A stretch of 64,000 bases of DNA from Ilex aquifolium (taxonomy: Eukaryota; Streptophyta; Magnoliopsida; Aquifoliales; Aquifoliaceae): NCBI GenBank assembly GCA_951799425.1, contig OX637394.1, positions 33,330,001 to 33,394,000 on the forward strand, read 5' to 3'. This document shows positions 9,383 through 49,468 of this stretch, one piece after another. The position numbers and the translations under genes are program-made. A model generated the notes under the pieces. The model worked only from the letters and a program-made list of their open reading frames with translations, searched no databases and had not been told where the DNA came from. Each line of letters starts with the position of its first letter. Positions within the stretch are counted from its first letter, which is position 1.

Positions 9383-10967
9383 TTCTTGGGCCCGAATCTT
9401 ATTCGATCCCGGTGCTACTCATTCTTTTATATGTACTGCATATGCTATGAATTTGGGATTGGGTTTCGAGAAGTTAGAACATGCCTTGACTGTTGACTTG
9501 CCTACGGGAGAACAGTTGGGTACTAGCCGAGTCTGCAAGGGTTGTGTGCTTCGTATTGGGGAGCACGAATTGATTGTGGATTTGATTGTTTTAGAGATGA
9601 AGGGGTATGACGTGATTTTTGGGATGAACTTGTTATCCGCTTTTCGGGCGGTAATGGATTGTTTCCGCAAGCGGATTACATTTCAATTGCCGGGAGGAGT
9701 CATTTTCAGTTTTGTGAATAACCGAGATTCTTTGCATCCATTTCCTACTACGGGAAGTAAATTCTTAAAAGCTAAGGCAGGGAGCCACTTGAGTTTCTTG
9801 ACTAGCTTGATGGGAGATGATCGAGATAGATCCCAATCGGGTATGATGTTGATTGTATCGGATTTTTCGGATGTCTTCCCAGATGAATTACCCGGGTTAC
9901 CGCCACAGAGAAAGATTGAGTTCGCAATCGATCTTTATCCGGGAACCGAACCTATTTCTATTGCTCCTTATCGGATGGCGCCTTTGGAGTTGAAGGAGCT
10001 AAGGAAGCAATTGGACCACTTGCTGGCAATTGGATTCATCCGTCTGAGCACTTCACCTTGGGGAGCCCCGGTCCTCTTTGTGAAGAAGACGGATGAAACA
10101 CTTCGGTTATGCACAGATTACCAACGGTTGAATCGGGTGACGGTGAAGAACAAGTATCCCTTGCCGCGCATTGATGATTTATTTGATCAGTTGAGGGGTT
10201 CTAAGTTCTACTCCAAGATTGATCTCCGCACCGGGTACCATCAACTGCGTATCAAGGAGGAGGATATTCCTAAGACTGTTTTTCGTACTCGGTATGGTCA
10301 CTTCGAGTATACGGTGATGCCGTTCGGATTGACTAATGCTCCAGCAGCCTTCATGGATTTGATGCACAGGGTATTCCGACCATATCTAGATCAATTTGTC
10401 ATTGTGTTTATTGATGACATATTGATTTATTCCCGGACACAAGAAGAACATACACATCATCTCTCGGTTGTGCTACAAACATTGAGAGAACATAAGTTAT
10501 ATGCGAAGAGGAGCAAGTGTGAGTTTTTGATGAAGGAAGTGAAGTTCCTTGGCCATGTTGTGTCCGAGCAAGGGGTAGCGGTTGATTCCTCGAAGATTGA
10601 GGCCGTGATGCAATGGGAACCACCAAAGAACGTGACAGAAATACGTAGTTTCTTGGGGTTAGCCGGCTACTATCGTAGGTTTGTGGAAGGTTTTTCCAAG
10701 CTTGCGATGCCAATGAATCGCCTTACCAAGAAGGGGGAGAAATTTGTGTGGACTCAAGCGTGTGAATTAGCTTTTCGCACCTTGAAGGAAAAGTTGACGA
10801 CGGCACCGATCCTCATTATTCCGAACAGTGGGGAAGGTTACGATGTTTACACCGATGATTCACTACGAGGCTTGGGATGTGTGTTGATGCAAGGAGGCAA
10901 GGTGGTTGCTTATGGCTCGAGACAACTCAAGATTCATGAGCAGAACTATCCCACTCACGACTTGTAG
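9383..10967 (+). pseudogene. pol: Protease, reverse transcriptase and start of RNase H
   Basis: The protease carries FDPGATHSF, a D-P-G variant of the aspartic active site that is common in this plant lineage, then [13 protein letters not shown] follows: the [14 protein letters not shown] linker, [50 protein letters not shown], the [12 protein letters not shown] motif, and [12 protein letters not shown] carrying the catalytic F-I-D-D (YxDD equivalent). The RNase H start is seen at [15 protein letters not shown] and YGSRQL. The frame stops at TAG 10965-10967, exactly where the RNase H catalytic glutamate of the HDLELA motif is expected. Copies DNA from element RNA when intact; here it is not functional. 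Confidence 0.93.
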
Positions 10968-11408
10968 CTAGCCACTGTGGTTTTTGCTCTTAAGTTGTGG
11001 AGGTGTTACTTGTATGGAGAGAAATTTCAAGTGTTCTCGGATCATAAAAGCCTCAAGTATGTGTTCACACAGAAAGAATTGAATCTTCGGCAGAGAAGGT
11101 GGATTGAGTACTTAGAAGATTACGACTTCACTCTCAACTATCATCCGGGGAAGGCTAATGTAGTAGTGGATGCATTGAGTAGGAAGTCTCAGGGTGAAAT
11201 CAATGTCCTTGCGGCTCAACGGTGGAAAATGATTGATACGTTAGAGGAGTTTGATCTATGGGTCGATGGGCCGGAGGATCGACCATGTTTGTTTAACCTA
11301 GTAGCTCAACCAATTCTCCGACAAAGGATTGTGGAGTTGCAACGGTTAGATCCCGAGTTGACAGAAATTCGGGATAAATTGGAGAGGAATGAGATTGTTG
11401 AGGATTAG
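10968..11408 (+). pseudogene. pol: RNase H C-terminal half and connection region
   Basis: Same frame as the preceding segment, just past its stop. FALKLWRCYLYG, FSDHKSLKY (catalytic aspartate), RQRRWIEYLEDYDF and YHPGKANVVVDALSR (last aspartate) are the standard chromovirus RNase H landmarks. This domain removes RNA from the RNA-DNA hybrid. A second nonsense codon, TAG at 11406-11408, separates it from integrase. Confidence 0.9.
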
Positions 11409-12746
11409 TCTATAAAGAATGAGGAGTTACAGTTTCGGGGAAGATTATGCGTGCCAAACGACGACCAAGTGAGGGAAGAAGTGTTGGGAGAGTGCCACCG
11501 ATCGAAGTTCTCTATACATCTGGGGAGTACAAAAATGTATAGAGATATGAAACGACAATATTGGTGGAGGGGAATGAAGAAGGATGTAGCAAAATTCATT
11601 TCAAGGTGTGCCGTATGTCAGCAAGTGAAGATTGAGCACCAACGACCAGGAGGATTATTACAGTCTCTGCCTATCCCGGAGTGGAAGTGGGATCATATCA
11701 CCATGGACTTCGTGTCGGGTTTTCCACGGACTTCAAGAGGGCATAACGCCGTATGGGTTATCGTAGATCGACTCACCAAGTCAGCTCACTTTTTGGGGAT
11801 GAAGACCACAGACTCGTTAGAGATCTTGAGCAGACTGTACATTCGAGAGATTGTTCGATTGCATGGAGTTCCACTTTCTATCGTGTCGGATCGTGATTCT
11901 CGTTTTGTGGCTCGTTTTTGGCAAAGTCTACAACAAGCTATGGGGACAGAGTTACATTTCAGCACAGCCTTTCACCCTCAAATAGATGGCCAGTCCGAGA
12001 GAGTGATACAGATTTTGGAAGACATGTTACGAGCTTGCGCGTTGGACTTCAAAGGGAGTTGGAGCGATCACTTACCGTTGGTGGAATTTGCGTACAACAA
12101 CAGCTACCAAGCGAGTATCGGGATGGCACCGTATGAAGCTTTGTATGGAAGACCATGTAGATCCCCGACGTGTTGGTTGGAAGCCGGAGAGAGTAGTATG
12201 TTTGGGCCCGAGATTGTGCGGGAGACAACGGAGAAGATTCAGCTCATTCGGGAGAGATTACGCACAGCACAGAGTCGACAAAAGAGCTATGCGGATAGGA
12301 GAAGAAGGCCTTTGGAATTCAAGGAGAGAGATTTTGTATTTCTCAAAGTGTCACCCAAGAAGGGCGTACTTAGATTCGGCAAGAAAGGAAAAATCGCTCC
12401 AAGGTACATCGGTCCATTTGAAGTGATCAAGACAGTGGGCAAAGTAGCATACCAACTTCGGCTACCAGCACCGTTGTCAGGAGTTAATGACGTATTCCAC
12501 GTTTCGATGTTGAGGAAGTGTCAACCAGATACGTCACATGTCGTGGATTTGGAGGATATTGAAGTGCAAGATGGAGTCACCTATGAAGAGCAGCCGGTGA
12601 AGATTCTTGATATCAAGGAGAAAGTGTTTCGCAACAAGGTAATCTAGCTGGTGAAAGTCCTGCGGCAACACCATGGCGTGGAAGAAGCAACTTGAGAAAC
12701 GGAGTGGGAGATGCGAGAGAAATATCCATATTTGTTCGCTACTTGA
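11409..12746 (+). pseudogene. pol: Integrase with GPY/F and chromodomain-like tail
   Basis: The zinc-binding HHCC region is visible (ECHRSKFSIHLG ... CAVCQQVK). The D-D-E core follows: WDHITMDFVSGFP, VSDRDSRFVARFW, and HPQIDGQSERVIQ with the final glutamate. Then come PYEALYGRPCRSP, the GPY/F module RYIGPFEVIK, and VFHVSMLRKC. The chromodomain-like tail (HHGVEEAT, EMREKYPYLF) is split by TAG 12645-12647 and TGA 12693-12695. The natural stop is TGA 12744-12746. All three catalytic acids are retained, so integrase is the least damaged part of the polyprotein. Confidence 0.93.
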
Positions 12747-12773
12747 GGTAAGTTTCGAGGACGAAACTTTCTT

Positions 12774-12787
12774 TAAGGGGGGTGGAT
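12774..12787 (+). promoter_or_regulatory. Polypurine tract of element 5814-15023
   Basis: AAGGGGGGTGGAT sits directly against the 3' LTR start and would prime plus-strand synthesis. The same tract occurs at 44594-44606 and, inverted, at 26916-26930. Confidence 0.9.
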
Positions 12788-15023
12788 TGTAACACCCCGC
12801 ATTTTATTTTATATATGCATATAGATATATAGTAAATAATTGTTGTAAAAATGGGGATATGTGTAGTGATGTATGTTTGAATTTGGTAGATTGGAAAAGT
12901 AGAGATTTAAAATATTAGTGGAAATAATAGTTGAAATTTAGTTTTAATAAGTGAAAATATGAAATTTTAGGTCCTAGAACTTGTATTAAATAGGTTTGGT
13001 GTAAAAATATGTGTTGGAGAGGTTTGGGATGGATTTGGTTGGCTTAGGAATGGATTGGAAATGGAAAAAGGGATGAAACAGTGAACAGTGCACGTGAACA
13101 GTGCACTGGCTGCAACTTCAAGCCCAATTAAACCTTGATGAAGTCAATATCTTTCAAAACTAAAAACATGAAAGTTGTAGATCTCTTTCTTAGAATTCCA
13201 TAGCATCTTGAATCATCTCAATCGGAGCTCGGATGAGAGAGTTATGCCTCGATAACGAAGTGATGTCGAAACAGCCCATGAACAGTAAAAAAAAAAAACG
13301 GGACTGCTGTGTTTAAAAACACAGATTTCAGCCCTTTACTCTCATTCCACTCTCAACCCACTTCTCTTAGGACTCTATAGGAAGATCAAGAAGGGAGAAA
13401 AGGGAAGGAGGAGATCACATGAACTTGGGTTCTAAGTTTAAAGTCTTGATTTAAGGTAGGAGATTTTCTCTCAATCTCTCACATTGAGGCTAGGTATATA
13501 TATATATATATGTTTCTTCACTCTCCTTCTCATATATATAATATGAAATACATGATTCTTGTTCTATTTGTAATAAATACCATGTTTTGAACAATATGAA
13601 GGGTGGGTAACCACCAAAGCTCTATTTTTTTTTTTCTTCAAAACCCTAGTTTTCAAGAAAAGGGGATTTTCTCCTAATTTCTTCTTTGTCTTTGATTTCA
13701 AAAATTTAGTGTTGAATATTGTATAACAAAATGATATAGATTACGATCTCTTGCATATTTTCTTGGATTATTCGATTATATGACAAATGTGAAAAATTGG
13801 GGATTTTTACTATATTTGGGAAATTGTTGTGAATTGTGAATATTCTTGGTTTCCTCATTGTATGGTTGTTGTGATGGACTTGGATTACCTTCGAGAGATG
13901 CCGTAGAGTGTTAGAGGTTAGTCTATCCCAGTGGGGGTAAGATGGTTGCCTAATGCTCGTAGTGGATCGTTGTTGTGACCGCGATCACTATTGTTCACAT
14001 ATATATCGAGGAAAAGGGTTAGTATACTAGACACCTTGGGAGGATTTCGTCAATGCCGTAGGAGACGGTACACGCCCTTCCTAAAGAGATTTGTGATTGT
14101 TGGTTGGAATTGGTGGACTAGGTATGATCGTTGGGTAGATTCACGGGAAGCAATCAACATACATGGTACGGGGATGAACCAAAAATACATGGAATCAGGA
14201 GTTGGGTCATTCTTGCCGATGCATTGGTATGGGACAATGCATGGGGAGAAGTCCTTCTTAAATAGCTTAAATAGGAATTTTGTTTATCGATGCTAAACTC
14301 ACTTTATTCTTTTAATTGATTATTGCTACTGTTTAAACTTGAGATCTCTTTTAAAATGTCACTGTTTTCATTCCAAATCTATATATATGTTAGTTGTGAA
14401 ATGAGACCGACCGCTTTCTATGTTTTCCAAACCTTGTTTGAGTTGAGAGGATTTTGCTACAGAGCTTTGTGCTCACCCCCTACAAATAACATTTTCAGAT
14501 TTCACACTTGAGGAGGAGCTAGGAGCCGAGGAGCCCACCCATTGGGAGACTCCGCTTGACGAGAGTGTGGATCCCGAGGTGGACGCTTAGAGCAACACTT
14601 TTATTTTGCTCTAGACTAGATTATGCTTAGAATATCCTTTTGAAGTCTAGTTCTTTTTTGTTATTTTCGCTGCGTTATATTATTACATTTTGGAGATGTA
14701 AAGGCCAAGATTGGGCCTATTCTTTTGGGATGATAGTGTGGATATGATATATGGTGAATGAAAGTTTATTTTATGATCGATAAATGGACCCGGTGTGGTC
14801 AATAGTTATGCATATGTGGACCCGGTGTGGTCAATTGTAATATAATTGTACATGTTATGTTTTGGGTAGAGCTCCCCATATAAAGGAAACTCTGCCCAAA
14901 TTTTGTTAAAATATGAATGGTTGATGAATGAAACTTTCGTCGTGATGGATTTACTTAGTGCTCTCATGCGGTGAATGATTTTTAGAATGTAATGTCACCC
15001 AAGGGGGTTTTTGGGGCGTTACA
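12788..15023 (+). repeat. 3' LTR of element 5814-15023
   Basis: It has the same boundaries and contents as the 5' LTR. It keeps the donor-like AAG|GTAGGA at 13456 and the acceptor CATTTTCAG ending at 14498. It has an extra copy of the ATGGACCCGGTGTGGTCAAT block near 14787-14830. The stem-loop is at 14864-14897. Confidence 0.95.
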
Positions 15024-24655: not shown

Positions 24656-26915
24656 TGTAACGCCCCCAAAACCCCCTTGGGTGACATTACATTCTAAAAA
24701 CCATTCACCGCATGAGAGCACTAAGTAAATCCATCACGACGAAAGTTTCATTCATCAACCATTCATATTTTAACAAAATTTTGGGCAGAGTCTCCTTTGT
24801 ACGGGGAGCTCTACCCAAAACACAACCTGTACAATTATATTACAATTGACCACACCGGGTCCACATATGCATAACTATTGACCACACCGGGTCCATTTAT
24901 CCATCATAAAATAAACTTTCATTCACCATATATCATATCCACACTATCATCCCAAAAGAATAGGCCAAATCTTGGCCTTTACATCTCCAAAATGTAATAA
25001 TATAACGCAACAGAAATAACAAAAAGGAATTAGACTTCAAAAGGATATTCTAAGCATAATCTAGTCTAGAACAAAATAAAAGTGTCGCTCTAAGCGTCCA
25101 CCTCGGGATCCACACTCCCGTCAAGCGGAGTCTCCCAATGGGCGGGCTCTCGGCTCCTAAATCCTCCTCAAGTGTGAAATCTGAAAATGTTATTTGTAGG
25201 GGGTGAGCACGAAGCTCTGTAGCAAAATCCTCTCAACTCAAACAAGGTTTGGAAAACATAGAAAACGGTCGGTCTCATTTCACAACTAACATATATATAG
25301 ATTTGGAATGAAAACAGTGACATTTTAAAAGAGATCTCAAGTTTAAACAGTAGCAATAATCAATTAAAAGAATAAAGTGAGTTTAGCATCGATAAACAAA
25401 ATTCCTATTTAAGCTATTTAAGAAGGACTTCTCCCCATGCATTGTCTCATACCAATGCATCGGCAAGAACGACTCAACTCCTGATTCCATGTATTTTTGG
25501 TTCATCCCCGTACTATGTATGTTGATTGCTTCCCGTGAATCTACCCAACGATCATACCTAGTCCACCAATTCCAACCAACAATCACAAATCTCTTTAGAA
25601 AGGGCGTGTACCGTCTCCTACGGCATTGACGAAATCCTCCCAAGGTGTCTAGTATACTAAACCTTTTCCTCGATATATATGTGAACAATAGTGATCGCGG
25701 TCACAACAACGATCCACTACTAGCATTAGGCAACCATCTCACCCCCACTGGGATAGACTAACCTCTAACACTCTACGACATCTCTCGAAGGTAATCCAAG
25801 TCCATCACAACAACCATACAATGAGGAAACCAAAAATATTCACAATTCACAACAATTTCCCAAATATAGTAAAAATCCCCAATTTTTCACATTTGTCATA
25901 TAATCGAATAATCCAAGAAAATATGCAAGAGATCGTAATCTATATCATTTTGTTATACAATATTCAACACTAAAGTTGTGAAATCAAAGACAAAAAAGAA
26001 ATTAGGAGAAAATCCCCTTTTCTTGAAAACTAGGGTTTTGAAGATAAAAAAAATAGAGCTTTGGTGGTTACCCACCCTTCATATTGTTCAAAACATGGCA
26101 TTTATTACAAATAGAACAAAAATCATGTATTTCATATTATATATATGAGAAGGAGAGTGAAGAAACATATATATATATATACCTAGCCTCAATGTGAGAG
26201 ATTGAGAGAAAATCCCCTACCTTAAATCAAGACTTTGAACTTAGAACCCAAGTTCTTGTGATCTCCTCCTTCCCTTTTCTCCCGTCTTGATCTTCCTCTA
26301 GAGTCCTAAGTGAAGTGGGTTGAGAGTGGAATGAAGAATGGGGCAAATGAGGGCTTGAGGTGGTGTTTTAAACCCAAAAATCCCGATTTTTTTTACTGTT
26401 TCGGCAAACACTTTCTACTTCAGACCAGTCTTCGTAGAATGGGAATAAATCTCTCATCCGAGCTCCGATTGAGATGATTCAAGATGCTATGGAATTATAA
26501 GAAAGATCTCTACAACTTTCATGTTTTGAGTTTTGAGAGATATTGACTGAATCAAGGTCGAAATCGCGCTTGAAGTTGCAGCCAGTGCACTGTTCACGTG
26601 CACTGTTCCCAGCCTGTTTCATCCCCTTTTTTTTTTCCATTTCCAATCCATTCCTAAGCCAACCAAATCCATCCCAAACCTCTCCAACACATATTTCTAC
26701 ACCAAACCTATTTAATACAAGTTCTAGGACCTAAAATTTCCTATTTTCACTTATTAAAAACCAAATTTCAACTATTATTTCCACTAACATTTTAAATCTC
26801 TACTTTTTCAATCTACCAAATTCAAACACACATCACTACACATATCCACATTTTTACAACAATTATTTACTATATATTTATATACATATATAAAATAAAA
26901 ATGCGGGGTGTTACA
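24656..26915 (-). repeat. 3' LTR of the LARD-like element
   Basis: Complementary strand of the A-type LTR. It carries the stem-loop at 24783-24816, the acceptor complement CTGAAAATG near 25182, and a donor complement CCCTACC near 26216. The right edge is TGCGGGGTGTTACA at 26915, followed by the polypurine tract complement. Confidence 0.93.
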
Positions 26916-29840
26916 ATCCACCCCCCTTAAAGAAAAATTTCGTCCTCGAAACTTAATCGTCGAGATAGTCTCTCAAATTCTCAATAATTTGAGAGACTAG
27001 AATCAAAATACATTCCTTCACTAGAATTCATTTATCACCTCTATTCTTAATAATTGTATACGATTGTTCCAACTAATTTCTTTTCAGACCTAACTACTAG
27101 ATCATAATACTTAATTGTGTACTCATCAAATATCACTTCTCTTTTGAATTTCACCACTCATTTCAATCAACCTCATATTTGCTTCTTACATGTAGCTTCT
27201 TCATAAGCATATCAAAATAACTCAAATGCAATTCCACCATTAGGATTACTCATCTTTCCTATACTAACATCATGGTGTAACACAAAATTTGTTAATGGCA
27301 TCACGGTAAGATTTATCTCAATTCCTGAAAATAGATACAATATTCTTCAAGATTTCATCTCTCACAACCCAAGAGGAATTCACAATCTTGAAATTTATCA
27401 TAATTTCAATTCATAACTACACACTCCACACAAGTCAAGGTTCTAAGATCAACTCTTAGGTTTCACATCAATTTGTACTTTCTCATAATACTCCTTACCG
27501 TCACCATTATAGTCATTAATCCAATAGCTTGCTGCACACTCTGGTATAAATTATAATCCACCGATTCACAAGTCAAAATATGCTACAAGATAAGGACTTC
27601 GCATAGATTTGAAAGTTCTGAGAGAATATCTTAGATTCCACCAAAGTATACAAGTGAAACCTAACCGCACTTGTTTTCCAATTATAGCTTCCAAAATGTG
27701 TACACTAACGATCCATCAAATCCATTCAAAAGGGAATTTTTGGTAATTAACCAGCTATAATACTTAAGCTAAAGATCAAGTTATATCTCCAAGATATTTG
27801 CTCTCGATCTACAATCTTGAGCTAGAACTAATAACCGTTTAATCATTTCTTAGTGACTTTCATTCACATCACAACTCTTTTCATGATACCTATACTTCGA
27901 ATCCTTCTGATACCATTCATTACAATGTACCTCTTGTAACATATCAAAATGTGAGGATAGACTGTCAAGGATCCAAAAACTAAAATAATCTAAACTAAAA
28001 TAGGACTCTCGATGATTCATACCATGTCAAAGCAAATCTTCATAGGCATCATCCTTGATTCTTCAATTTACTTATTTACCATTATCACCATCAACCATAA
28101 GTTCGAATCTTCTATACTCATACTAACATTCCTCAAGTATAAATAATCATTCCGATCTTAACAAGGTACTAAAAGAGACAAGAAGAACAACGTCATATTC
28201 CCACAACACAAATCCAATGACATTAAAAGGTTTCCTAGAACAATAGAAGTTCACCTCAAATTTGGGATATCATCCTCTTTTCATAATTGTCTACTATATA
28301 TGACATCAAGATTTTAACATCTATAATCTTTAATCCTATAATATCAAGGGTCAAAGGTAATTACTACAACTTAGTCATGCTTCTTAGATTTCCCTTTTTC
28401 CATGTCTATAAATTCGTTTCCATAACTTGACCTCAATTTCAAATCCATATTTGTAAATACAAGTCAACTATTAACTACACACTCACCCAATAGATTCTTG
28501 ATTGTTAACATTTTAGAGAGTCTAACTATAGTGAACTAAGTCCACAACAAAATAAGATTACCTAAGTATAACGTCCTCAAGGAGTATCCTATGTATGACC
28601 CATCTAAACCATCAATACTTCCAAAGTAAATTTAATCAACTCTCCGTAATATTTTCAAACTAATATTGGGAACCTCAAGTAAGTGGTTATGAAACAACCT
28701 CCTATAGATTTAATATCTATAACCACAATTCCAATCATGATTCCAAAAATAAGCTCCCATTCGAGGTTACTTCACCACATTCCTTCAATTGCTCGTATTC
28801 GAGAATTATACTATCTCATATTATTGTAATCACCCTAGAGGAAAACATAACACTCCCATGGTTCATATCGTAAACCAAAACTACATTCATTCCTTAATTT
28901 CTATGACTTTTAAGCAACACACATAACCTTCCGTAACCTTATTATTCAAACTTAGTCCATCTTAAAAACATCCAAATAAACCTTATCTCCACACATCCCA
29001 ATTGGGTTATCATATCCCTTGACTTCTAAAATATGAGCAATACTATTTGTGGAAGAGAATACTTAAAGTTGACAAGCACCAAATCATAATCATCTTTTAT
29101 ATTGTTATCCATCAAAAGCACTTCAATCAATATGGGGGTGTCTCTCAATCAAAGCCTAAATAATGTGGAAGTTCACTTAAGGATAGGTCCTTCAGAATCG
29201 AAGAAGATAGTACAACACTTTACTGTCCAAAGAACACCACAGTGCAGATTTTTTTGACCAACTTCGAAGAATAAACTGATTTGACTCGAGTATTTTGAGC
29301 ATGCGTGACCTATATGGTTGGAAAGATATACGAGTTAGGGTTCTAAAAAAAATAACGGTGCACAATTTGGACTTTCCAATGAAGAGTTATGAACAAATTG
29401 GTGCGAGGTAGTCTGCCGGACTGTTTGGTTCCTTTATACTTGTCTAACTCAAGTTTGGGTGTCTTTGTCACACATCCTATCTCATACCTATCTCCAATAT
29501 AAATAATATGACTCGCAATCAAGATCCATGATTAATCTCATTTACAAACCAAAAGCCAAATTATCATCCGTTTCCTAGACTAGTCCCAAAACGACATGAT
29601 ATGAAACTACAATATCCATCCCAAAATTTTCGTCAACTCCTCAAAACTAGATAATCCATGAATTCGAACAAATAATTAATCCCTAACCTAACTAAACAAC
29701 AAATCACACTTATCTTCTAAACATAGAACTTCAAACAAATCAAAACTTAAAGTTTCTTCATCCTAAACTAATACTCCAGTGATAGTCCACCACCTACAGC
29801 TCCCATGTAAGACTTAATTCCTAACCTCTGATACCAAATT
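26916..29840 (-). other. Non-coding interior of the LARD-like element
   Basis: 2.9 kb of AT-rich DNA without open frames of note and without similarity to gag-pol. It begins with a polypurine tract and the block TTTCGTCCTCGAAACTT (complement of the 3' leader seen before other 3' LTRs). It ends with CCCATGTAAGACTTAATTCC and the primer site (complement of the leader following the 5' LTR at 8037). A patch at about 29140-29480 has a different texture and resembles LTR U3 sequence. Confidence 0.8.
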
Positions 29841-32101
29841 TTTAACGCCCCAAAAACCCCCTTGGGTGACATTACATTCTAAAAACCATTCACCGCATGA
29901 GAGCAATAAGTAAATCCATCACGACGAAAGTTTCATTCATCAACCATTCATATTTTAACAAAATTTGGGCAGAGTCTCCTTTGTACGGGGAGCTCTACCC
30001 AAAACACAACATGTACAATTATATTACAATTGACCACACCGGGTCCACATATGCATAACTATTGACCACACAGGGTCCATTTATCCATCATAAAATAAAC
30101 TTTCATTCACCATATATCATATCCACACTATCATCCCAAAAGAATAGGCCAAATCTTAGCCTTTACATCTCCAAAATGTAATAATATAACACAGCGGAAA
30201 TAACAAAAAGGAACTAGACTTCAAAAGGATATTCTAAGCATAATCTAGTCTAGAACAAAATAAAAGTGTCGCTCTAAGCGTCCACCTCGGGATCCACACT
30301 CCCGTCAAGCGGAGTCTCCCAATGGGCGGGCTCCTCGGCTCCTAACTCCTCCTCAAGTGTGAAATCTGAAAATGTTATTTGTAGGGGGTGAGCGCGAAGC
30401 TCTGTAGCAAAATCCTCTCAACTCAAACAAGGTTTGGAAAACATAGAAAACGGTCGGTCTCATTTCACAACTAACATATATATAGATTTGGAATGAAAAC
30501 AGTGACATTTTAAAAGAGATCTCAAGTTTAAACAGTAGCAATAATCAATGAAAAGAATAAAGTGAGTTTAGCATCGATAAACAAAATTCCAATTTAAGCT
30601 ATTTAAGAAGGACTTCTCCCCATGCATTGTCGCATACCAATGCATCGGCAAGAACGACCAAACTCCTGATTTCATGTATTTTTGGTTCATCCCCGTACCA
30701 TGTATGTTGATTGCTTCCCGTGAATCTACCTAACGATCATACCTAGTCCACCAATTCCAACCAACAATCACAAATCTCTTTAGGAAGGGCATGTGCCATC
30801 TCCTACGGCATTGACGAAATCCTCCCAAGGTGTCTAGTATACTAAACCTTTTCCTCGATATATATGTGAACAATAGTGATCGCGGTCACAACAACGATCC
30901 ACTACGAGCATTAGGCAACCATCTCACCCCCACTGGGATAGACTAACCTCTAACACTCTACGGCATCTCTCGAAGGTAATCCAAGTCCATCACAACAACC
31001 ATACAATGAGGAAACCAAGAATATTCACAATTCACAACAATTTCCCAAATATAGTAAAAATCCTCAATTTTTCACATTTGTCATATAATCGAATAATCCA
31101 AGAAAATATGCAAGAGATTGTAATCTATATCATTTTGTTATACAATATTCAACACTAAAGTTGTGAAATCAAAGACAAAGAAGAAATTAGGAGAAAATCC
31201 CATTTTCTTGAAAACTAGGGTTTTGAAGATAAAAAAAATAGAGCTTTGGTGGTTACCCACCCTTCATATTGTTCAAAACATGGCATTTATTACAAATAGA
31301 ACAAAAATCATGTATTTCATATTATATATATGAGAAGAAGAGTGAAGAAACATATATATATATATACCTAGCCTCAATGTGAGAGATTGAGAGAAAATCC
31401 CCTACCTTAAATCAAGACTTTGAACTTAGAACCCAAGTTCTTGTGATCTCCTCCTTCCCTTTTCTCCCGTCTTGATCTTCCTCTAGAGTCCTAAGTGAAG
31501 TGGGTTGAGAGTGGAATGAAGAATGGGGCAAATGAGGGCTTGAGGTGGTGTTTTAAACCCAAAAATCCCGATTTTTTTTACTGTTTCGGCAAACACTTTC
31601 TACTTCAGACCAGTCTTCGTAGAATGGGAATAAATCTCTCATCCGAGCTCCGATTGAGATGATTCAAGATGATATGGAATTATAAGAAAGATCTCTACAA
31701 CTTTCATGTTTTGAGTTTTGAGAGATATTGACTGAATCAAGGTCGAAATCGCGCTTGAAGTTGCAGCCAGTGCACTGTTCACGTGCACTGTTCCCAGCCT
31801 GTTTCATCCCCTTTTTTTTTTTCCATTTCCAATCCATTCCTAAGTCAACCAAATCCATCACAAACCTCTCCAACACATATTTCTACACCAAACCTATTTA
31901 ATACAAGTTCTAGGACCTAAAATTTCCTATTTTCACTTATTAAAAACTAAATTTCAACTATTGTTTCCACTAACATTTTAAATCTCTACTTTTTTTATCT
32001 ACCAAATTCAAACACACATCACTACACATATCCACATTTTTTCAACAATTATTTACTATATATCTATATACATATATAAAATAAAAATGCGGGGTGTTAC
32101 A
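29841..32101 (-). repeat. 5' LTR of the LARD-like element
   Basis: It is nearly identical to 24656-26915. Its left edge reads TTTAACGCCCC, one change from TGTAACGCCCC. The stem-loop is at 29967-30000. Confidence 0.93.
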
Positions 32102-38755: not shown

Positions 38756-41356
38756 TGTAACACCCCGCATTTTATTTTATATATGTATATATATATATAG
38801 TAAATAATTGATGTAAAAATGTGGATATGTGTAGTGATGTGTGTTTGAATTTGGTAGATTGGAAAAGTAGAGATTTAAAATGTTAGTGAAAATAATAGTT
38901 GAAATTTGGTTTTTAATAAGTGAAAATATGAAATTTTAGGTCCTAGAATTTGTATTAAATAGGTTTGGTGTAGAAATATGTGTTGGAGAGGTTTGGGATG
39001 GATTTGGTTGGCTTAGGAATGGATTGGAAATGGAAAAAGGGATGAAACAGGCTGTGAACAGTGCACTGGCTGCAACTTCAAGCGCAATTTCGACCTTAAT
39101 CCAGTCAATATCTCTCAAAACTCAAAACATGAAAGTTGTATAGATCTTTCGTATAATTCCATAGCCTTTTGAATCATCTCAATCGGAGCTTGGATGAGAG
39201 AGTTATGCCCAGATAAAGAAGTGATGTCAAAACAGCCCAATTAGCTTGAACAGTGCACGTGAACAGTGCACTGGCTGCAACTTCAAACCCGATTTAGATC
39301 TTGATTCAGTCAATATCTCTTAAAACTCAAAACATTAAAGTTTTAGAACTCTTTCTTAGCGTTTTATATCATCTTGAATCATCTCAATCGGAGCTCGGAT
39401 GAGAGAGTTATGCCCAGATAACGAAACGATGTCAAAACAACCAATAAACAGTAAAATTCGGGGCAGCTGTGTTTAAAACCCCATTTACATTACATTTTCT
39501 CTCATTTCATACATTCCACTCTCACCAAAAACCTCTTAGAGCCCTAGGAGAAGATAAATCGAAGAAGAAAAGGGAGAAAGAGAGTCTCTAAAGCTTGCGC
39601 TTTGGTTTGAAATTCTTGATTTCAAGGTAGGGGTTTTCTTCCATTCTTGTCCATTAAGGTTAGGGCATAAATATATGTATGTTTTCACTCTCATTCATAT
39701 ATATATATGGTATGAAATACTTGATTCTTGACATTCTTGCAATGATTATAATGTTTTAAACAAATCTATGGTGGAATAACCATTAAATCCTTTTTTCTCA
39801 TCTTCAAACCCTAGGTTTCAAGAGAAAGAGGTTTTTCTTTTGATTTCTCCCATGTTCTCGATTTCAAAACTTTAGTGTTTCATATTGAACAACAAAATGA
39901 TATTTATGATGATCTCTTGTACATTTTCTTATATTGCCCTTTTACAACTATTTGAGAAAATTGGGGGTTTATGGAATTGTTTGTTAATTGAGGAAATTGT
40001 GGATATCGTATTTTTTGTATGGTTGTTTGGAGGAACATGGGTGAGAGGTTCCTTGTAAGGATGCTCATTCCTTCTCAGGAGGTTCCTTGTAAGGATGTTT
40101 TTTTCTTGAATTTGGTCCGTTGGAGATATCACTTGTGAGAATTGGAGATTTTTTTTGGGAATTGCTTGTAAATTGGGGACTTGTGTAATTGTTGGGTATT
40201 TGAGAGAATAGTTGATATTGTATTTATTGTATGGTTGTTGGACGAACATGGGTGAGAGGTTCCTTGTAAGGATGCTCATATCAACGAAACTAAACCTTGA
40301 GGATGAGAGGTTCCTTGTAAGGATGCTCATGCCAAAAGAGGACAGTATGTGATTTTCTCAAGAGGTTCCTTGTAAGGATGCTTGAGAAACCAAACCTTGA
40401 GGGTGAGAGGTTCCTTGTAAGGGTATTCATGCCAAAAGAGGACAGTATGTGATTCTCTCAAGAGGTTCCTTGTAAGGATGCTTGAGAAACCAAATCTTGA
40501 GGGTGAGAGGTTCCTTGTAAGGATGCTCATGCCAAAAGAGGACAGTATGTGATTTTCTCAAGAGGTTCCTTGTAAGGATGCTCGAGAAACCAAACTTTGA
40601 GGGTGAGAGGTTCCTTGTAAGGATGCTCATGCCATGGAGGATAATATTATATCATGTGTGAGAAATGGTTTATATTTTGAAAATGGATGTTTATTAGAAT
40701 TGGTTGTTATTGTTCATTTCTAGTACTATTGCTACTTAAACTTGAGATCTGTTGTAAAATGTCTTTGTTTTACTTCAAAGATTATATATGCTATTTGTGA
40801 AATGAGACTGACCATATTATATGTTTTTATAAACCTTGTTCGAGTTTGGGAGGAATGTTGCTACAGAGCTTAGTGCTCACCCCCTACAAACAACATATTT
40901 CAGGTCTTTGTCTAGAGGAGGAGCTCGGAACTGACGAGCCAGGACATTGGGAAGCTCCCATAGAAGGGAACGTAGATCCCGAGGGAGACGCTTAGTGTTT
41001 TATTTTCTTTTGTGATAAACTAGGAAGTTCCTTTTGAGGCAATGTAAAGTCTAACATTATTTTTATGTTTCCGCTGCCAAGTGTAATTTAATTCTTTTGG
41101 GATGTAGATGCCATTGTTTGACATATTCTTTTGGATAATGCTGTAAGTATTTTTATGAATCAATGGACCCGGTGTGGTCAATGTAGTATAATTGCACAGG
41201 TTGTGTTTTGGGTAGAGCTCCCCGAACAAAGGAGACTCTGCCCGAATTTCGTTAAATTAAGGAACCCCGGTTATTTATGGATTTTTATTAGTTGCTCTCG
41301 TGGTATAAATGGTTTTGGAATGTAATGTCGTCCAGGGTGGTATTTGGGGCGTTACA
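38756..41356 (+). repeat. 5' LTR of chimeric element
   Basis: 2.6 kb. It contains a duplicated GTGCACGTGAACAGTGCAC module (near 39050 and 39255), donor-like AAG|GTAGGGG at 39627, a 100-bp minisatellite (40038-40636), acceptor ATATTTCAG ending at 40903, and the stem-loop at 41210-41243. Confidence 0.94.
40038..40636 (+). repeat. ~100-bp minisatellite with GAGGTTCCTTGTAAGGATGCT core
   Basis: Units contain GAGGTTCCTTGTAAGGATGC about every 50 bases; alternate half-units carry CCAAAAGAGGACAGTATGTG, giving a 100-bp period. The complement reads as a repeated MSILTRNL phrase, which is a by-product of the repeat and not a protein. The same array lies at 45880-46478 and, inverted, at 52350-52770. Confidence 0.93.
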
Positions 41357-41360
41357 AAGT

Positions 41361-41372
41361 TGGTATCAGAGC
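41361..41372 (+). promoter_or_regulatory. Primer-binding site of chimeric element
   Basis: TGGTATCAGAGC, initiator tRNA-Met type, four bases after the LTR end. Confidence 0.92.
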
Positions 41373-41544
41373 CTAGGCTTTAGGTCTTACATGGGAGCTG
41401 TAGGTTATGGATCACCACTAGAGCCTTAGGACTAGGTTGGATAAAAATTCTTGAGTTAGATTTTCACACGTCCTATGTTTTAGATTAAAGTGATAGTGGG
41501 ATGTCTTGTACATCAATGAACTAAGTTGTATATTGATGTGTAAA

Positions 41545-43110
41545 ATGGACGGTGAACGAGGACGAAGACGTGGACGTGAACGAGGACGTGGACGTGAACG
41601 TGGACGTGGACGTGAATGAGGACGAGGACGTGGACGTGTACGTGAACGTGGAAGTGTACGTGAACGTGGATGTGGGTGTGGTCGTGGAGGTTAAGCCAAT
41701 CCACCACCACCGCCACCTCCCGATGCCTTGAATGGCATATATCATTGCTTGAGGGAGCTCACCACTTTGGTACAAAACCAAAATGGGAACAATAACCATA
41801 ATGGTGGAGCTCATCCACTCGCTCAAGTACCAGGCAATGGGAACGGAGACCAAAGGATGATAGCTCATCGGGAATTCTTGAGGTAACGTACACCCAATTT
41901 CCAAGGGAGCTCCAATTATTTGGATACGGATAGGTGGATACGGCGGGTGAAGAAAGTGTGTGACGGCATGGGAGTTGCCGAAGACTTGAGGGTTGGCTTG
42001 GCGACCTCCTTGTTAGAGGGGGAGGCCGACTATTGGCGGGATTCGGTTAAGAGACGGAGGGACACCGATGCTCTCACTTGGGAGGAGTTCGACCGAATCT
42101 TCCAATACAAGTACTTCCCTGAATCAGTCAGAGACCGAATGAAGGCTGATTCCTGCACTACGACAGGGCAGTATGACAGTGGCCGAGTAAGAGAGGAGGT
42201 TTGACGAGCTCTCCCGTTATGCTATGGGATTTATATCTACTGAGGCCGACAGGGCCAAACGCTTTGAGCAGGGATTGAGGCCTGTCATCCGGGAGAAGTT
42301 GGTGCCCCTCAAGATCCAGGAGTATGGGGACCTGGTTGACCTAGCTGCATTGGTGGAGAGAGATATAGAGGACAGCCAGCGGCGACAGAGCTTCCAGAGA
42401 GGAGGTCCGATCAGGACGGACCCTAGCACCAGTGGAGTGCAGCGAGCAGCACCATACCGAAGTCCAGACCAGGCAAGTGGACAGAGACTTCTGACAGCTC
42501 GAGGAGATGAAGTGACTCAGACTAGAACAAGCACTGACCCGCGCCAATGCTTTGCATGCGGAGAGTATGGGCACTTCAAACATAGATGCCCCTCGTTTCC
42601 CCCAAGGACCAAACAAGCAACCGAGCAAGTACCAGCAAACAAGCCACCTCTACAAAGGCCAGCACAGCAGAGACCTCAGATAGCTCGAGGAGCGGGAGGC
42701 GTACCAGAGAGAGTAGGCACGAATGCATGCCAATGCTTTGCCTGTGGAGGTGTTGGGCACTTCAAAGATAATTGTCCATTGCTTTCCACCAAGACCAACC
42801 AAGCAACTGGGCGAGTGAATGCAAACAGGCCACCGCTACGACAGTCATTACCACCACAGAGACTGTTACAAGCTCATGCCCCCGGCGGCGCCAATCAAGG
42901 AAGGGTTTTTTGCTTTGACTCAACCGGAGGAAGATGCCTCCAACGCCGTTGGGGAAGGTATTGTTCTTCTCTACCATTCTTGGGCCCGAATTTTATTGGA
43001 TTCCTATGCGACTCATTCTTTTATACGTACTACAAACGCTGTGGAATTGGGATTGGGTTCCGAGGAGCTAGAACATGCTTTATATGTTGACTTGCCTACG
43101 GGAGAACAGG
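41545..43110 (+). pseudogene. gag: Gag of chimeric element with duplicated zinc knuckle
   Basis: The ATG at 41545 is followed by an expanded GAR/GER codon run (CGTGGACGTGAACG words to about 41690) containing an in-frame TGA. A TAA follows near 41884. The capsid region is readable from 41920 (WIRRVKKVCDGMG, EADYWRDSVKRRRDT) to a one-base loss near 42150 and a TAA in AEYERRF. From 42224 it continues (RAKRFEQGLRPV) through two knuckles, CFACGEYGHFKHRC and CFACGGVGHFKDNC, where the 5814 element has one. A T-run gain at about 42907 shifts the frame into protease. Confidence 0.9.
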
Positions 43111-43167
43111 GGGATACCAGGCTGGTCTGTAAGGGTTACGTGCAAGCGGATTACATTTCAGTTACCA
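42905..43167 (+). pseudogene. Protease N-terminal fragment
   Basis: Reads [32 protein letters not shown] and [14 protein letters not shown], then stops matching protease after ADYISVT at the junction with the insert. The active site is DSYA instead of D-S/T/P-G-A, as in the left copy at 1566-1870. Confidence 0.85.
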
Positions 43168-44180
43168 GTAGGTTTACTTATATATATTTCTTTGACTCTA
43201 AATGTTATATGTATGCTATCCAATCCTTGATTCTTACTATTCTTGAAATTAATGCCATATGGAAAATAATGTGATGGTTGGGTGACCCTTAAATCGCCTG
43301 GCTTGCTACCAAACCCTAGTTTTCAAGAGAAATGTGTTTTTCTCTTGATTTCTCCTTTGTTGATATTTGTTTGTTATTGATTTCAATACGTGATTGTTCC
43401 TTATTTTTAATTCTAAGCTTGATATTCGTTGTTATGGATTTCAAGAAGTGATTGTTCATTTGTTCTTGATTTTCAAGCTTAATATTCATTTGTTCTTGAT
43501 ATCTAAATTTGATATGCACTTGGTAGTGACTATAACCCTTGTGATTCAATTATTCTCAATGTTCAATATTGGATATTCTTTATTCTTGGTTCCAAGACTT
43601 GAGTGTTCTTTTGATCTTGATTTCTAAGCTTCATAATCATTTGTTCTTGATTTCACACCTTGATAGTCGTTTGTTATTGATTTCCATACATGATTGTTCC
43701 GTTAAATCTTAATTTCTCCTTTGTTCATGACTTTCAAGCTTGATACGCTTTTATTCTTGATTTCCAAGCTTAATATTCATGTGTTCTTGATAGCCAAATT
43801 TAATATTCATTTGTTGTTGATTCTAACCCTTGTGATTCATTTATTCTTGATATTCAATACTTGATATTCATTGGTTCTTGATTTCAAGACTTGACATTCA
43901 ATTGCTCTTGATTTCAATACTTGATTTCTCCTTGTCCATGAGTTCAAAACTTGATACTCTTTAGTTCTTGGTTACAAATCTTGATATGCATCTGTTATTG
44001 ACTCCAAGACTCGATTGTTACTTTGTTCTTGATTCCAAAGCTTGATTATTTATTTGTTCCTTAATTCAAAATTCTAACGATTGGTATTGACGAATAAAAT
44101 GGTATTTTCGATGATATTATGTTAATTTTTCTTAAATTATTTCGTTGGAAAAATGTATGTGGATTTGGGTCGCCTAAGAA
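43168..44180 (+). repeat. LTR-leader-like insert with minisatellite in place of RT-RNaseH-integrase core
   Basis: It begins GTAGGTTTACTTATATATATTTC and continues in the order found in LTRs after their GTAGG motif: an AT stretch, TTGATTCTT, a TGGTTGGGTGACCC block, CCCTAGTTTTCAAGAGAAA, then TTGATTTC. Then come about 25 units of TTGTTCTTGATTTCAAGCTT-like words to about 44050. A tail AATAAAATGGTATTTTCGATGATAT resembles the LTR block AACAAAATGATATTTATGATGAT. The inserted DNA is thus LTR leader sequence with an expanded unit. Confidence 0.8.
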
Positions 44181-44565
44181 ATGAGTGTTTAGATTCGGCC
44201 AAAAGGGCAAGTTAGCGCCAAGATATACCGGACCGTTTGAGGTAATCAAAGCGGTAGGCAAGGCGGCATATCAACTTCGACTACCAGCCCAGCTATCCGG
44301 AGTACATGACGTGTTCCACGTATCCATGTTGAGAAGGTGTCACTCGGATGCAACTCCAGTCGTGAACTTGGAGGAGATTGAAATTCAAGACGGAGCAACC
44401 TACGCAGAACAACCGGTAGAAATTCTCGACGCCCAGGAAAAAGTGCTTCGCAACAAAGTTATCAGATTGGTGAAGGTTTTGTGGCAACACCATGGAGTGG
44501 AGGAAGCTACATGGGAACCGGAGCAAGAAATGCGGGAGAAGTATCCATATTTGTTCGCTACTTGA
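44181..44565 (+). pseudogene. Integrase C-terminus with chromodomain-like tail
   Basis: A 126-codon frame can be read: MFRFGQKGKLAPRYTGPFEV, FHVSMLRRC, EIQDGATYAEQPVEILDAQE, and the intact tail HHGVEEATWEPEQEMREKYP, ending TGA at 44563-44565. Unlike the copy at 12647 there is no internal stop. The core with the catalytic D-D-E residues is missing. The reading may survive only because this region overlaps the cis signals needed near the 3' LTR. Confidence 0.85.
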
Positions 44566-46963
44566 GGTAAGTTTCGAGGACGAAACTTTCTTTAAGGGGG
44601 GTGGATTGTAACACCCCGCATTTTATTTTATATATGTATATAGATATATAGTAAATAATTGATGTAAAAATGTGGATATGTGTAGTGATTTGTGTTTGAA
44701 TTTGGTAGATTGGAAAAGTAGAGATTTAAAATGTTAGTAGAAATAATAGTTGAAATTTGGTTTTTAATAAGTGAAAATATGAAATTTTAGGTCCTAGAAT
44801 TTATATTAAATAGGTTTGGTGTAGAAATATGTGTTGGAGAGGTTTGGGATGGATTGGAAATGGAAAAAGGGATGAAACAGGCTGTGAACAGTGCACGTGA
44901 ACAGTGCACTGGCTGCAACTTCAAGCGCGATTTCGACCTTGATGCAGTCAATATCTCTCAAAACTCAAAACATGAAAGTTGTATATCTCTTTCTTAGAAT
45001 TTCATAGCCTTTTGAATCATCTCAATCGGAGCTTGGATGAGAGAGTTATGCCCAGATAAAGAAGTGATGTCAAAACAGCCCAATTAGCTTGAACAGTGCA
45101 CGTGAACAGTGCACTGGCTGCAACTTCAAACCCGATTTAGACCTTGATTCAGTCAATATCTCTCAAAACTCAAAACATGAAAGTTGTAGAACTCTTTCTT
45201 AGCGTTTTATATCATCTTGAATCATCTCAATCGGAGCTCGGATGAGAGAGTTATGCCCAAATAACGAAACGATGTCAAAACAGCCAATGAACAGTAAAAT
45301 TCGGGGCAGCTGTGTTTAAAACCCCATTTACATTACATTTTCTCTCATTTCATACATTCCACTCTCACCACAAACCTCTTAGAGCCCTAGGAGAAGATAA
45401 ATCGAAGAAGAAAAGGGAGAAAGAGAGTCTCTAAAGCTTGCGCTTTGGTTTGAAATTCTTGATTTCAAGGTAGGGGTTTTCTTCCATTCTTGTCCATTGA
45501 GGTTAGGGCATAAATATATGTATGTTTTCACTCTCATTCATATATATATATGGTATGAAATACTTGATTCTTGACATTCTTGCAAAGATTATAATGTTTT
45601 AAACAAATCTATGGTGAAATAACCATTAAATCCTTTTTTCTCATCTTCAAACTCTAGGTTTCAAGAGAAAGGGGTTTTTCTTTTGATTTCTCTCATGTTC
45701 TCGATTTCAAAACTTTAGTGTTTCATATTGAACAACAAAATGATATTTATGATGATCTCTTGTACATTTTCTTATATTGCTCTTTTACAACTACTTGAGA
45801 AAATTAGGGGTTTATGGAATTGTTTGTTAATTGAGGAAATTGTGGATATCGTATTTTTTGTATGGTTGTTTGGAGGAACATGGGTGAGAGGTTCCTTGTA
45901 AGGATGCTCATTCCTTCTCAGGAGGTTCCTTGTAAGGATGTTTTTTTCTTGAATTTGGTCCGTTGGAGATATCACTTGTGAGAATTGGAGATTTTTCTTG
46001 GGAATTGCTTGTAAATTGGGGACTTGTGTAATTGTTGGGTATTTGAGAGAATAGTTGATATTGTATTTATTGTATGGTTGTTGGACGAACATGGGTGAGA
46101 GGTTCCTTGTAAGGATGCTCATATCAACGAAACTAAACCTTGAGGATGAGAGGTTCCTTGTAAGGATGCTCATGCCAAAAGAGGACAGTATGTGATTTTC
46201 TCAAGAGGTTCCTTGTAAGGATGCTTGAGAAACCAAACCTTGAGGGTGAGAGGTTCCTTGTAAGGGTATTCATGCCAAAAGAGGACAGTATGTGATTCTC
46301 TCAAGAGGTTCCTTGTAAGGATGCTTGAGAAACCAAATCTTGAGGGTGAGAGGTTCCTTGTAAGGATGCTCATGCCAAAAGAGGACAGTATGTGATTTTC
46401 TCAAGAGGTTCCTTGTAAGGATGCTCGAGAAACCAAACTTTGAGGGTGAGAGGTTCCTTGTAAGGATGCTCATGCCATGGAGGATAATATTATATCATGT
46501 ATGAGAAATGGTTTATATTTTGAAAATGGATGTTTATTAGAATTGGTTGTTATTGTTCATTTCTAGTACTATTGCTACTTAAACTTGAGATCTGTTGTAA
46601 AATGTCATTGTTTTACTTCAAAGATTATATATGCTATTTGTGAAATGAGACCGACCATTTTATATGTTTTTATAAACCTTGTTCGAGTTTGGGAGGAATG
46701 TTGCTACAGAGCTTAGTGCTCACCCCCTACAAACAACATATTTCAGGTCTTTGTCTAGAGGAGGAGCTCGGAACTGACGAGCCAGGACATTGGGAAGCTC
46801 CCATAGAAGGGAACGTAGATCCCGAGGGAGACGCTTAGTGTTCTATTTTCTTTTGTGATAAACTAGGAAGTTCCTTTTGAGACAATGTAAAGTCTAACAT
46901 TATTTTTATGTTTCCGCTGCCAAGTGTAATTTAATTCTTTTGGGATGTAGATGCCATTGTTTG

Positions 46964-49227
46964 TGTAACACCCCAAAACACACCCTGACCGGCATTACAT
47001 TCTAAAACATTCACATCATGAGAGCACTAAAATAATCCATCAATAAATAAGACTTCATAAAGTCATCCATAAAATTTACAGCATTAACCCAAAAGAATAG
47101 GCCCATTTTGGCCTTTACATTCCAAAACCAGCTAATGTAGCACAGCGGAAATAACAAAAGAAAACTAGGCTTTACAATGTTCAAAATGAATATCCTAGTC
47201 TAGAACAAAAGAAAGTGTCGCTCTAGACGTCCACCTCGGGATCCACACTCCCGTCCAGTGGAGTCTCCCAAGTAGCGGGCTCCTCGACCCCTACGTCCTC
47301 CTCTTGTAGGAAATCTGAAAAATGTTAGCGGTAGGGGGTGAGCACAAAGCTCTGTAGAACAATTCTCTCAAACCCATACAAGGTTTAGAAAAAAAAAAAC
47401 ATTCAAAACGGTCGGTCTCATTTCACAAATATCATACATAAAGATTTTGAATGAAAATAGTGACATTTGAAAAAAGATCTCAAATTTAAACAGTAGCAAT
47501 AATCCATTAAAAGAATAAAGTGAGTTTAGCATCGATAAACAAAATTCCAATTTACGCTATTTAAGAAGGACTTCTCCCCATGCATTGTCCCATACCAATG
47601 CATCGGCAAGAACGACCCAACTCCTGATTTCATGTATTTTTGGTTCATCCCCGTACCATGTATGTTGATTGCTTCCCGTGAATCTACCCAACGATCATAC
47701 CTAGTCCACCAATTCCAACCAACAATCACAAATCTCTTTAGGAAGGGCGTGTACCGTCTCCTACGGCATTGACGAAATCCTCCCAAGGTGTCTAGTATAC
47801 TAACCCTTTTCCTCGATATATATATGTGAACAATAGTGATCGCGGTCACAACAACGATCCACTACGAGCATTAGGCAACCATCTCACCCCCACTGGGATA
47901 GACTAACCTCTAACACTCTACGGCATCTCTCGAAGGTAATCCAAGTCCATCACAACAACCATACAATGAGGAAACCAAGAATATTCACAATTCACAACAA
48001 TTTCCCAAATATAGTAAAAATCCCCAATTTTTCACATTTGTCATGTAATCGAATAATCCAAGAAAATATGCAAGAGATCGTAATCTATATCATTTTGTTA
48101 TACAATATTCAACACTAAAGTTTTGAAATCAAAGACAAAGAATAAATTAGGAGAAAATCCCATTTTCTTCAAAACTCGGGTTCGATTGTGAAAAAGAATG
48201 GTTCCATGGTTACCCAACCACCAAAATGTTTGAAACATGCCCTTTATTGCAAAAATATCAAGAATCATGTACTACATATCATATATATGAGAAGACAAGT
48301 GAGAGACATACATAAATATACAACCCTAGCCTCAATGTGTGAGAAATGAGAGAAAACTCCTACCTCTTAGTTGTAGCTTTAAATACAAGACCCAACCTTC
48401 AAAACATTTTTATTCTCCTTCCTTTTCCTCTTAATTTCCTCCTCCTAGGGTTTCAAGAGATTTGAGTGAGATTGGGTGAAGAAGGGAAGAAAAGGAAATG
48501 GGTATAGAAGTGGAATCTTGAGGAATTGAGGGTTTTGATCTTCACAATTGATGTAAATCTCTCTCTTGGATGTGTTTTTCTCTTCCTCTCTTCTCCTCTC
48601 AAGCTATCTAGGGTTTGGAGTGGTGTAATGAAGACTAAGGAGGTGACAAAAATGTATTTATAGTGGAGGAAAAATCGAGGGTTCGCGAACAGAAAAATTC
48701 GGATTTTTACAGTGGCTACCGGTAGCTGATTTTGGCTACCGGTAGCTCGGACACACGGGACCCTCGACTACCGGTTGGCTACCGGTAGCTGATTTTTACT
48801 GGACCATCGGCTACCGGTTGGCTACCGGTAGCTGATTGTTACTGGACCATCGGCTACCGGTATCTGAATTTGGCTACCGGTAGCTGATTTTGGCTACCGG
48901 TAGTCACTACCCAGATTTTTTTTCTACTTCCACTTCCAATGCAATTTTTGACCCATTTAGAGGTCGAATTGGAAAATTTTCATTAGATACACTTTTGTAG
49001 CTCTAGATGTCTACTATCTACTGTCCAAATTTCAGGTCATTTGGAATTAAGACTAAAAATTTATGTCCAAAGTACTAAGAAGTATTCAATACCCATTTTT
49101 CCCCAATTCTCGCTAAAGTGTATTTTAACTCCAGGACACTTCCTAACTTCCAATACATCTTTACAAATATTGTTTACTATATATATATATATATATACAT
49201 ATATAAAAGAAAATTCGGGGCGTTACA
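46964..49227 (-). mobile_element. Nested solo LTR (subfamily C)
   Basis: 2.26 kb, TGTAACACCCC...CGGGGCGTTACA on +, with target duplication GTTTG (46959-46963 and 49228-49232). Orientation follows from the AAAGAAAATTCGGGGCG end, which is an LTR start inverted. The TATA box complement TATTTATA is at 48655-48662. The leader-intron-like pair on the minus strand is GTAGGA at 48363 to TTTTTCAG at 47315. It lacks the stem-loop block, like the solo LTR at 36653. Confidence 0.93.
48710..48912. promoter_or_regulatory. GGCTACCGGTAGCT palindrome array upstream of TATA box
   Basis: About nine copies of GCTACCGGTAGC or near matches (CTACCGGTTGG, CTACCGGTATC), within 50-250 bp of the TATA box on the minus strand. 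The array lies on the upstream side of that box. Confidence 0.65.
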
Positions 49228-49468
49228 GTTTGGCATATACTTTTGGATAATGTTGTAAGTATTTTTATGAATCAATGGACCCGGTGTGGTCAATGTAGTA
49301 TAATTGCACAGGTTGTGTTTTGGGTAGAGCTCCCCGAACAAAGGAGACTCTGCCCGAATTTCGTTAAATTAAGGACCCCCGGTTATTTATGAATTTTTAT
49401 TAGTTGCTCTCATGGTATAAATGGTTTTAGAATGTAATGCCGTCTAGGGTGGTATTTGGGGCGTTACA

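Follow-up and report, generated by a model that had tools for sequence, protein, structure and literature searches.

Gag-only partners, exchange of gag and disagreement between long terminal repeats (LTRs) and internal regions are already known among plant retrotransposons (PMC11302176, PMC9744471). We analysed a window of 64,000 nucleotides from Ilex aquifolium (contig OX637394.1, positions 33,330,001 to 33,394,000; G000:C4:33330001-33394000 in our numbering), which lies within an 800-Mb plant genome and contains element C, a complete non-autonomous LTR retrotransposon. By content, C falls in the same gag-bearing class as Quinta of the wheat RLG_Quinta/RLG_Cereba system (PMC11302176): gag is kept, reverse transcriptase (RT) and the integrase (IN) core are absent, and the primer binding site (PBS), polypurine tract (PPT) and LTR ends are common with an autonomous partner, here element A of the same window. 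Quinta also resembles C in its divergent gag types between conserved flanks, which were ascribed to template switching, but it has a domain of unknown function, while in C the replaced part is made of leader, minisatellite and internal stretches from another, non-coding family, M.

In Angela and Wilma/Sabrina/WHAM of wheat, LTR and internal trees disagree, as they do here, and partner switches were attributed to gene conversion or template switching; unlike the situation in C, an LTR leader of one family inside the pol of another is not described in the available part of that paper (PMC9744471). The complex insertions of Sabot and Schulman 2007 (PMC1950507) would share with C the fusion of two parents in reverse transcription, and also have target duplications. 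However, they contain three LTRs and two cores, and C was ruled out as such an element because it has two LTRs and a single fused internal region. Onsen recombinants (PMC5668417) show much recombination during transposition, as seen here, but within one family, whereas here blocks come from a second family too. Template switching has been proposed or reported for plant elements in all four papers (PMC1950507, PMC5668417, PMC11302176, PMC9744471). Among open-licence papers, searched by title and start of abstract, no description of one LTR family's leader inside another's pol was found. By description, C also resembles the TR-GAG elements, which are reportedly gag-only, and its exchanges resemble the LTR swapping said to occur in soybean.

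Element A showed the features of a Ty3/gypsy LTR retrotransposon, with Gag, protease (PR), RT, RNase H (RH) and IN in order by Pfam and a 5-bp duplication (CACTG). Relatives of its protease-RT frame that had an organism named, among the 120 matches listed, were from flowering plants. The stretch matching A ~9690-12350 was missing from C, which passes from the end of protease to the C-terminal tail of integrase; RT, RNase H and the integrase core were gone and about 1 kb stood in their place (self-comparison and Pfam). This agrees with the first-pass annotation of the window, which had reported that C and a truncated minus-strand copy at the window's start keep the gag/protease start and integrase tail around a replaced pol core. 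The junctions of the truncated copy (1-1870) were identical to those of C, and the LTR pair of C was 97.0-97.4% identical with the target duplication AATTA on both flanks, both as previously described. By comparison with A and M, C is a mosaic whose gag-protease part and integrase tail are of gypsy origin and whose middle comes from M. The usual picture of a non-autonomous element is that of a deletion product of a single parent; judged by its breakpoints, this gag-only lineage is built from two families.

At the left junction, the protease side ran up to ACCAG and was followed by TAGGTTTACTTATAT, with the break at 43168|43169. The sequence of A at the corresponding place was CAAGCGGATTACATTTCAATTGCCGGGAGG, so the protease side is genuine; about 120 bp were deleted within the protease homology, which otherwise reaches the junction. 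The junction had been placed here before, and that placement held, with the boundary being CCAG|TAGG since the G of GTAGG derives from the protease side and not from an LTR leader. The accompanying claim that the insert starts exactly at a splice-donor-like GTAGG of the LTRs failed, because the insert aligned to LTRs at (C/T)TAGG, about 34 nt past their GTAGGGG. LTR homology of the insert reaching upstream to 43151 was considered and dropped: for 43143-43200 alone, 2 to 135 of 200 shuffles were as good, depending on the LTR, and the apparent homology there is due to protease sequence, as A 9641-9740 shows. The right junction read GGATTTGG|GTCGCCTAAG (GTCGCC) at 44168|44169, about 17 bp before TGTTTAG; it was indeed shared by the two copies, at a site that had been given only approximately.

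The genome was queried with the insert, giving 88 matches (best 40 of 2671 candidates scored; in all similarity searches only the best candidates were scored), and 10-kb loci were taken for 22 regions. These were picked for the insert, so proportions among them are not genome frequencies. Two left junctions were found by exact strings, type 1 in 9/22 loci and type 2, which is 48 bp shorter between ACCAG repeats, in 12/22, with neither in L038. The right junction of the window was present in 6/22 loci and an older one in 14/22 (neither in L031 and L042). In the older copies the insert extended about 130 bp further and joined integrase near A 12216.

With up to 3 mismatches allowed, the type 1 left junction occurred at 259 genome places, the type 2 left junction at 554 and the window-type right junction at 111, while controls gave 0 in each case; the junctions are therefore not confined to the two window copies. 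Some of these places lay in regular tandem arrays, and there are thus fewer insertions than junctions. Integrase-tail sequence followed the insert in all 22 loci, and gag-protease sequence, often shortened, preceded it in 21 (the exception was L038). Of the first 20 loci, 16 had LTR repeat pairs; L037 and L038 among these were tandem arrays, and the pairs of the other 14 were 95.5 to 99.6% identical. No LTR pair was found in L021, L023, L024 and L027 among these 20; pairs were also present in L041 and L042. Exact 5-bp duplications flanked five of the 20 (L029, L031, L035, L039 and L040), with C in the window besides, and the remaining loci were cut, rearranged or unmatched by the simple duplication test. 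Both junctions recur across the genome and 5-bp duplications flank copies, which supports transposition of the chimeric non-autonomous lineage as such, as had been proposed. A protein search with the junction frame gave 2 matches, both to the protease half only, and revealed no mosaic in other genomes by that route.

The tandem arrays consisted of LTR-internal units, 99.9% alike, spaced ~5.57 kb in L037 and 4.55 kb in L038. Similar spacings of 5.53 kb and 4.8 kb were seen at G000:C10:34015150-34059414 and in parts of G000:C9:24186814-24228396, respectively.

Comparison of the insert with LTR subfamilies showed leader homology above shuffled background: the segment 43143-43360 beat 200/200 shuffles against 7 of 8 LTRs (the miss was M3o), and the tail of the insert, 44040-44165, did so against only 2 of 8 (C5 and M3i). 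The reported order of LTR leader blocks was upheld by these tests, but the donor was not the element's own leader. The nearest LTR, of M type, lay at the edge of L032. Against it the insert of L023 was 88-95% identical in nine leader and array bins and fell to 76-83% in the two filled bins that follow; two array stretches of L023 (4842-4961 and ~5201-5440) had no counterpart in it, whereas C's own LTR was about 70% identical to the insert. With a 701-bp query of the L032-type LTR, all 40 scored places (best of 5588 candidates, query locus included) matched at 96-100% over full or near-full length. Between a pair of such LTRs in L043 (C16), 1.2 kb matched internal sequence of the window copy of M at 96% over 1200/1200 bp; M internal matches also lay between another LTR pair at C13:7004118-7006962 and adjoining a third place at C18:1551728-1554358.

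A LARD has two LTRs, a PBS, a PPT and a long internal region without coding capacity, and M fits this definition, which is applied here with no length threshold. M is 7.4 kb long, with A-type LTRs, a PBS of TGGTATCAGAGG, unlike the TGGTATCAGAGCC of C and A, and a 2.9-kb internal region whose longest ATG/GTG/TTG frame is 59 amino acids; all 40 scored places for this region matched (best of 1991 candidates, window copy included). Two stretches of it, 2142-2206 and 2275-2336, matched the tail of the L023 insert at 80-81%, collinear and in the same sense, and the corresponding pieces of L028 each beat 300/300 shuffles. Before M was recognised, the older tail beyond ~L026:5515 had shown no clear match to seven LTRs or to A pol. 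The window copies have lost most of this M-internal part, and the residue in C was insignificant alone (227/300 shuffles equally good). No LTR end or PBS of at least 60 bp was present inside the insert in maps of the 22 loci. The L032-type LTR is closest and the M-internal pieces follow in order and sense, which identifies the insert, by its alignments, as a condensed M made of leader, array and two internal pieces.

The minisatellite had been described as expanding. Each of 14 inserts had 23-35 unit-core matches; the LTRs of L032 and L037 had 9 and 6, against 0-2 for 10 other LTR leaders, so that the array was probably in the donor LTR beforehand.

Exchange of blocks appears to have continued after the insert was acquired. 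The 5' halves of gag fell into two types across the 22 loci, ~71-86% identical between and mostly 92-98% within types, while gag 3' plus protease was mostly >90% alike (lower bins in L023, L024, L025, L036 and L040). The left part of the insert also had two types, 63-69% identical between them and 94-97% within type 1, and the array reached 90-98% identity in many bins, with lower values wherever the number of units varied (e.g. L027, L032-L034 and L039). L022 paired one gag type with the opposite insert type. The occurrence of two or more leader types, while the flanks on either side were mostly >90% identical, suggests that the first 200 bp of the insert were replaced. In L027, L029, L038 and L039 the second leader type was followed by a portion of a third, and 160-180 bp of M-like sequence ran from the PBS on in L023, L024, L025, L036, L038, L039 and L040.

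Of 78 matches, a leader-block tree used 22 rows from inserts and 45 from LTRs; 7 matches that were partial were dropped, as were 4 lying in repeated units of L037 and L038. The tree showed two insert clades, one including the L032 LTR (100/100) and the other sister to the L037 LTR (95/90). A single clade of all inserts was rejected (p = 0.004), an insert clade that includes the two LTR rows was not rejected (p = 0.155), and with these two rows removed the inserts grouped weakly (82/67).

The LTRs of C were 88-97% identical to those of A over the first ~690 bp (well-filled 100-bp bins) and 70-84% beyond, with a single bin at 93%. The drop lies just after a TATA-like TTTAAAA, which would fit an exchange at the U3/R border in first-strand transfer. 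A 205-bp tandem duplication was present in the first third of both C LTRs (39054-39442 and 44885-45285) and was unaligned in the A 5' LTR. Elsewhere in the window (51602-56381, minus strand), a full C-type LTR was nested near position 1469 of a different LTR, itself mosaic.

The Gag of C has two CCHC knuckles and that of A has one. Differences at gag codon positions 1/2/3 were 10.6/6.7/19.0% between C and L028 (479 codons), compared with 3.6/4.0/5.5% for L034/L035 and 4.6/4.0/6.0% for L026/L028 within lineages. Given this position-3 excess between lineages and the flatter pattern within them, Gag looks to have been constrained while the lineage was mobile, with neutral decay afterwards. Among the first 20 loci, L026 alone had an open frame that reached 501 amino acids. 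The protease motif is DSYA in C where A has DPGA, a change that would be expected to inactivate an aspartic protease. The autonomous family was abundant, with an uninterrupted frame of >1,500 amino acids in 27 of the 79 places scored (best of 28,022 candidates). The PBS, PPT and LTR ends are common to both, and the mosaic was presumably mobilised in trans by this family.

Table 1. Positions of the elements and of the parts of element C in the window.
Feature	Position	Strand	Remarks
Element A	5814..15023	+	Autonomous type (gag, PR, RT, RH, IN); duplication CACTG; self-comparison and Pfam
Element C, complete non-autonomous mosaic	38756..49468	+	AATTA on both flanks; LTR pair ~97%
Truncated second mosaic copy	1..1870	-	Junctions identical to those of C
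Element M, non-coding, donor family of insert	24656..32101	-	A-type LTRs 98.1% alike; duplication TGCCT
M-internal part present in older insert tails, two pieces	27491..27704	-	
C 5' LTR	38756..41356	+	Start A-like, rest diverged
Primer binding site TGGTATCAGAGCC	41361..41373	+	Common to C and A
gag open frame	42224..43090	+	288 amino acids, two CCHC knuckles; Pfam and frames
Tandem duplication in C gag region	42482-42653 / 42668-42839	+	Self-comparison
Protease remnant frame	42819..43274	+	Extends into insert; DSYA, DPGA in A
Left junction ACCAG|TAGG	43164..43172	+	259 genome places
Insert leader block, type 1	43169..43362	+	
Insert ~30-bp minisatellite	43360..44059	+	
End of LTR-like part of insert	44060..44145	+	
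Residue of M-internal part	44146..44168	+	Named solely via alignment with older copies
Integrase C-terminal tail	44169..44566	+	Right junction 44168|44169; 111 genome places
Polypurine tract AAGGGGGGTGGAT	44594..44606	+	Identical in C, A and M
C 3' LTR	44607..49468	+	Interrupted by solo LTR N
Solo LTR N nested in C 3' LTR	46964..49227	-	Duplication GTTTG

The C lineage is best explained as a large gag-encoding, pol-less branch of a plant Ty3/gypsy family in which the middle was replaced by a condensed piece of M RNA, with LTR leader part, minisatellite and two internal stretches, before an autonomous-type integrase tail. We consider it probable that this happened by template switching between co-packaged RNAs. 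RT would have switched within one particle from integrase tail to M internal region, then to M leader and on to protease, breaking off at brief matches, TAGG being an example. What resulted has a Gag that looks constrained and an altered protease motif, lacks RT and the integrase core, and is presumably mobilised by the autonomous family. Since the insert is similar to LTR leaders, its initial 200 bp were probably swapped for those of other leaders in later switches; blocks of gag and of the LTRs were exchanged as well. The mosaic structure, the donor family, the genome-wide junctions, the new insertions flanked by duplications and the gag codon pattern are observed; we infer the RNA route, the mobilisation in trans and the order of events. 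Template switching is favoured because the product is sense-oriented, collinear and restricted to the transcribed part, with breaks at short matches and tracts that were replaced later. The first-pass annotation had called this origin plausible, and it stays so. Several observations weigh against the account: the donor matches, at 76-95%, fall short of identity; the gag of A, the autonomous copy compared, is only 73-74% identical to mosaic gag; the clade tests (p = 0.004 and 0.155) are compatible with one capture or two; in L025, L036 and L040 the differences from L026 are larger at each of the three gag codon positions, opposing uniform constraint; and an M copy nested in pol, followed by deletions, could yield the same end product.

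That DNA route, in which deletions strip U3, U5, PBS, most of the internal region and flanking pol from the nested M before the remnant transposes, draws on processes seen here: nesting is common in the window (solo LTR N in C and the nested LTRs at 51602-56381), and short-repeat deletions probably did occur later, as in the 48 bp between ACCAG repeats and on the right side. However, sequence would have to be deleted from either end and from within, each time sparing only the sense leader-to-internal part, and the maps of the 22 loci showed no LTR end of at least 60 bp within the inserts; we regard it as unlikely. A single switch by which the element acquired a copy of its own LTR leader within pol would explain the collinear leader homology, but the own LTR reaches only about 70% where the M-type LTR reaches 88-95% in leader and array bins, and the older insert also holds M internal sequence, which makes this very improbable. 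For Ogre elements an intron separating PR from the remainder of pol has reportedly been proposed, and the GTAGG at the left junction together with TTTATATCAG in the older insert tail could be taken for the ends of a similar intron, spliced out from between the protease and the integrase tail. Since the acceptor-like part is lost in the window sublineage (111 places), and splicing would fuse gag to an isolated integrase tail, we give this slightly less credence still. One segmental duplication, to which the identical junctions of the two window copies might have pointed, is refuted by the hundreds of junction places across many contigs, and local duplication of the window copies was ruled out on the same ground.

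The insert could be a portable leader module from the efficient parasite M, aiding packaging or dimerisation and, through its homology to LTR leaders in the group, serving as a docking site for repeated RT switching. This is a doubtful idea, with which the insert in the gag-less L038 and the differing leader types at one site (loci picked by insert) are compatible, though they do not prove it. If true, any autonomous family that happens to be active could exchange its leader, gag and LTR with those of the lineage. The assembled lineage reached hundreds of junction-bearing places while its captured piece and LTRs appear to have been exchanged further, and its many copies, of which some show duplications and LTR pairs, would allow statistical tests of breakpoints and of leader-aided packaging. 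The mosaic points to part-swapping between retrotransposon parasites, a variant of known behaviour.

The flanks of C sit in A+T-rich degenerate arrays of ~20-bp units, e.g. CAAATTAACATTCAATTCAT, and long arrays of this kind were present at 33550-36600, 49467-51507, 56976-57098 and 59363-60250. An apparent 76-bp repeat occurred in opposite orientation near both window ends (2162-2698 and 63822-64000; consensus units compared by eye), and a 22-bp minisatellite, GTTCCAACTTTTTTGGGTAGGG, was present in ~38 copies at 60792-61622.
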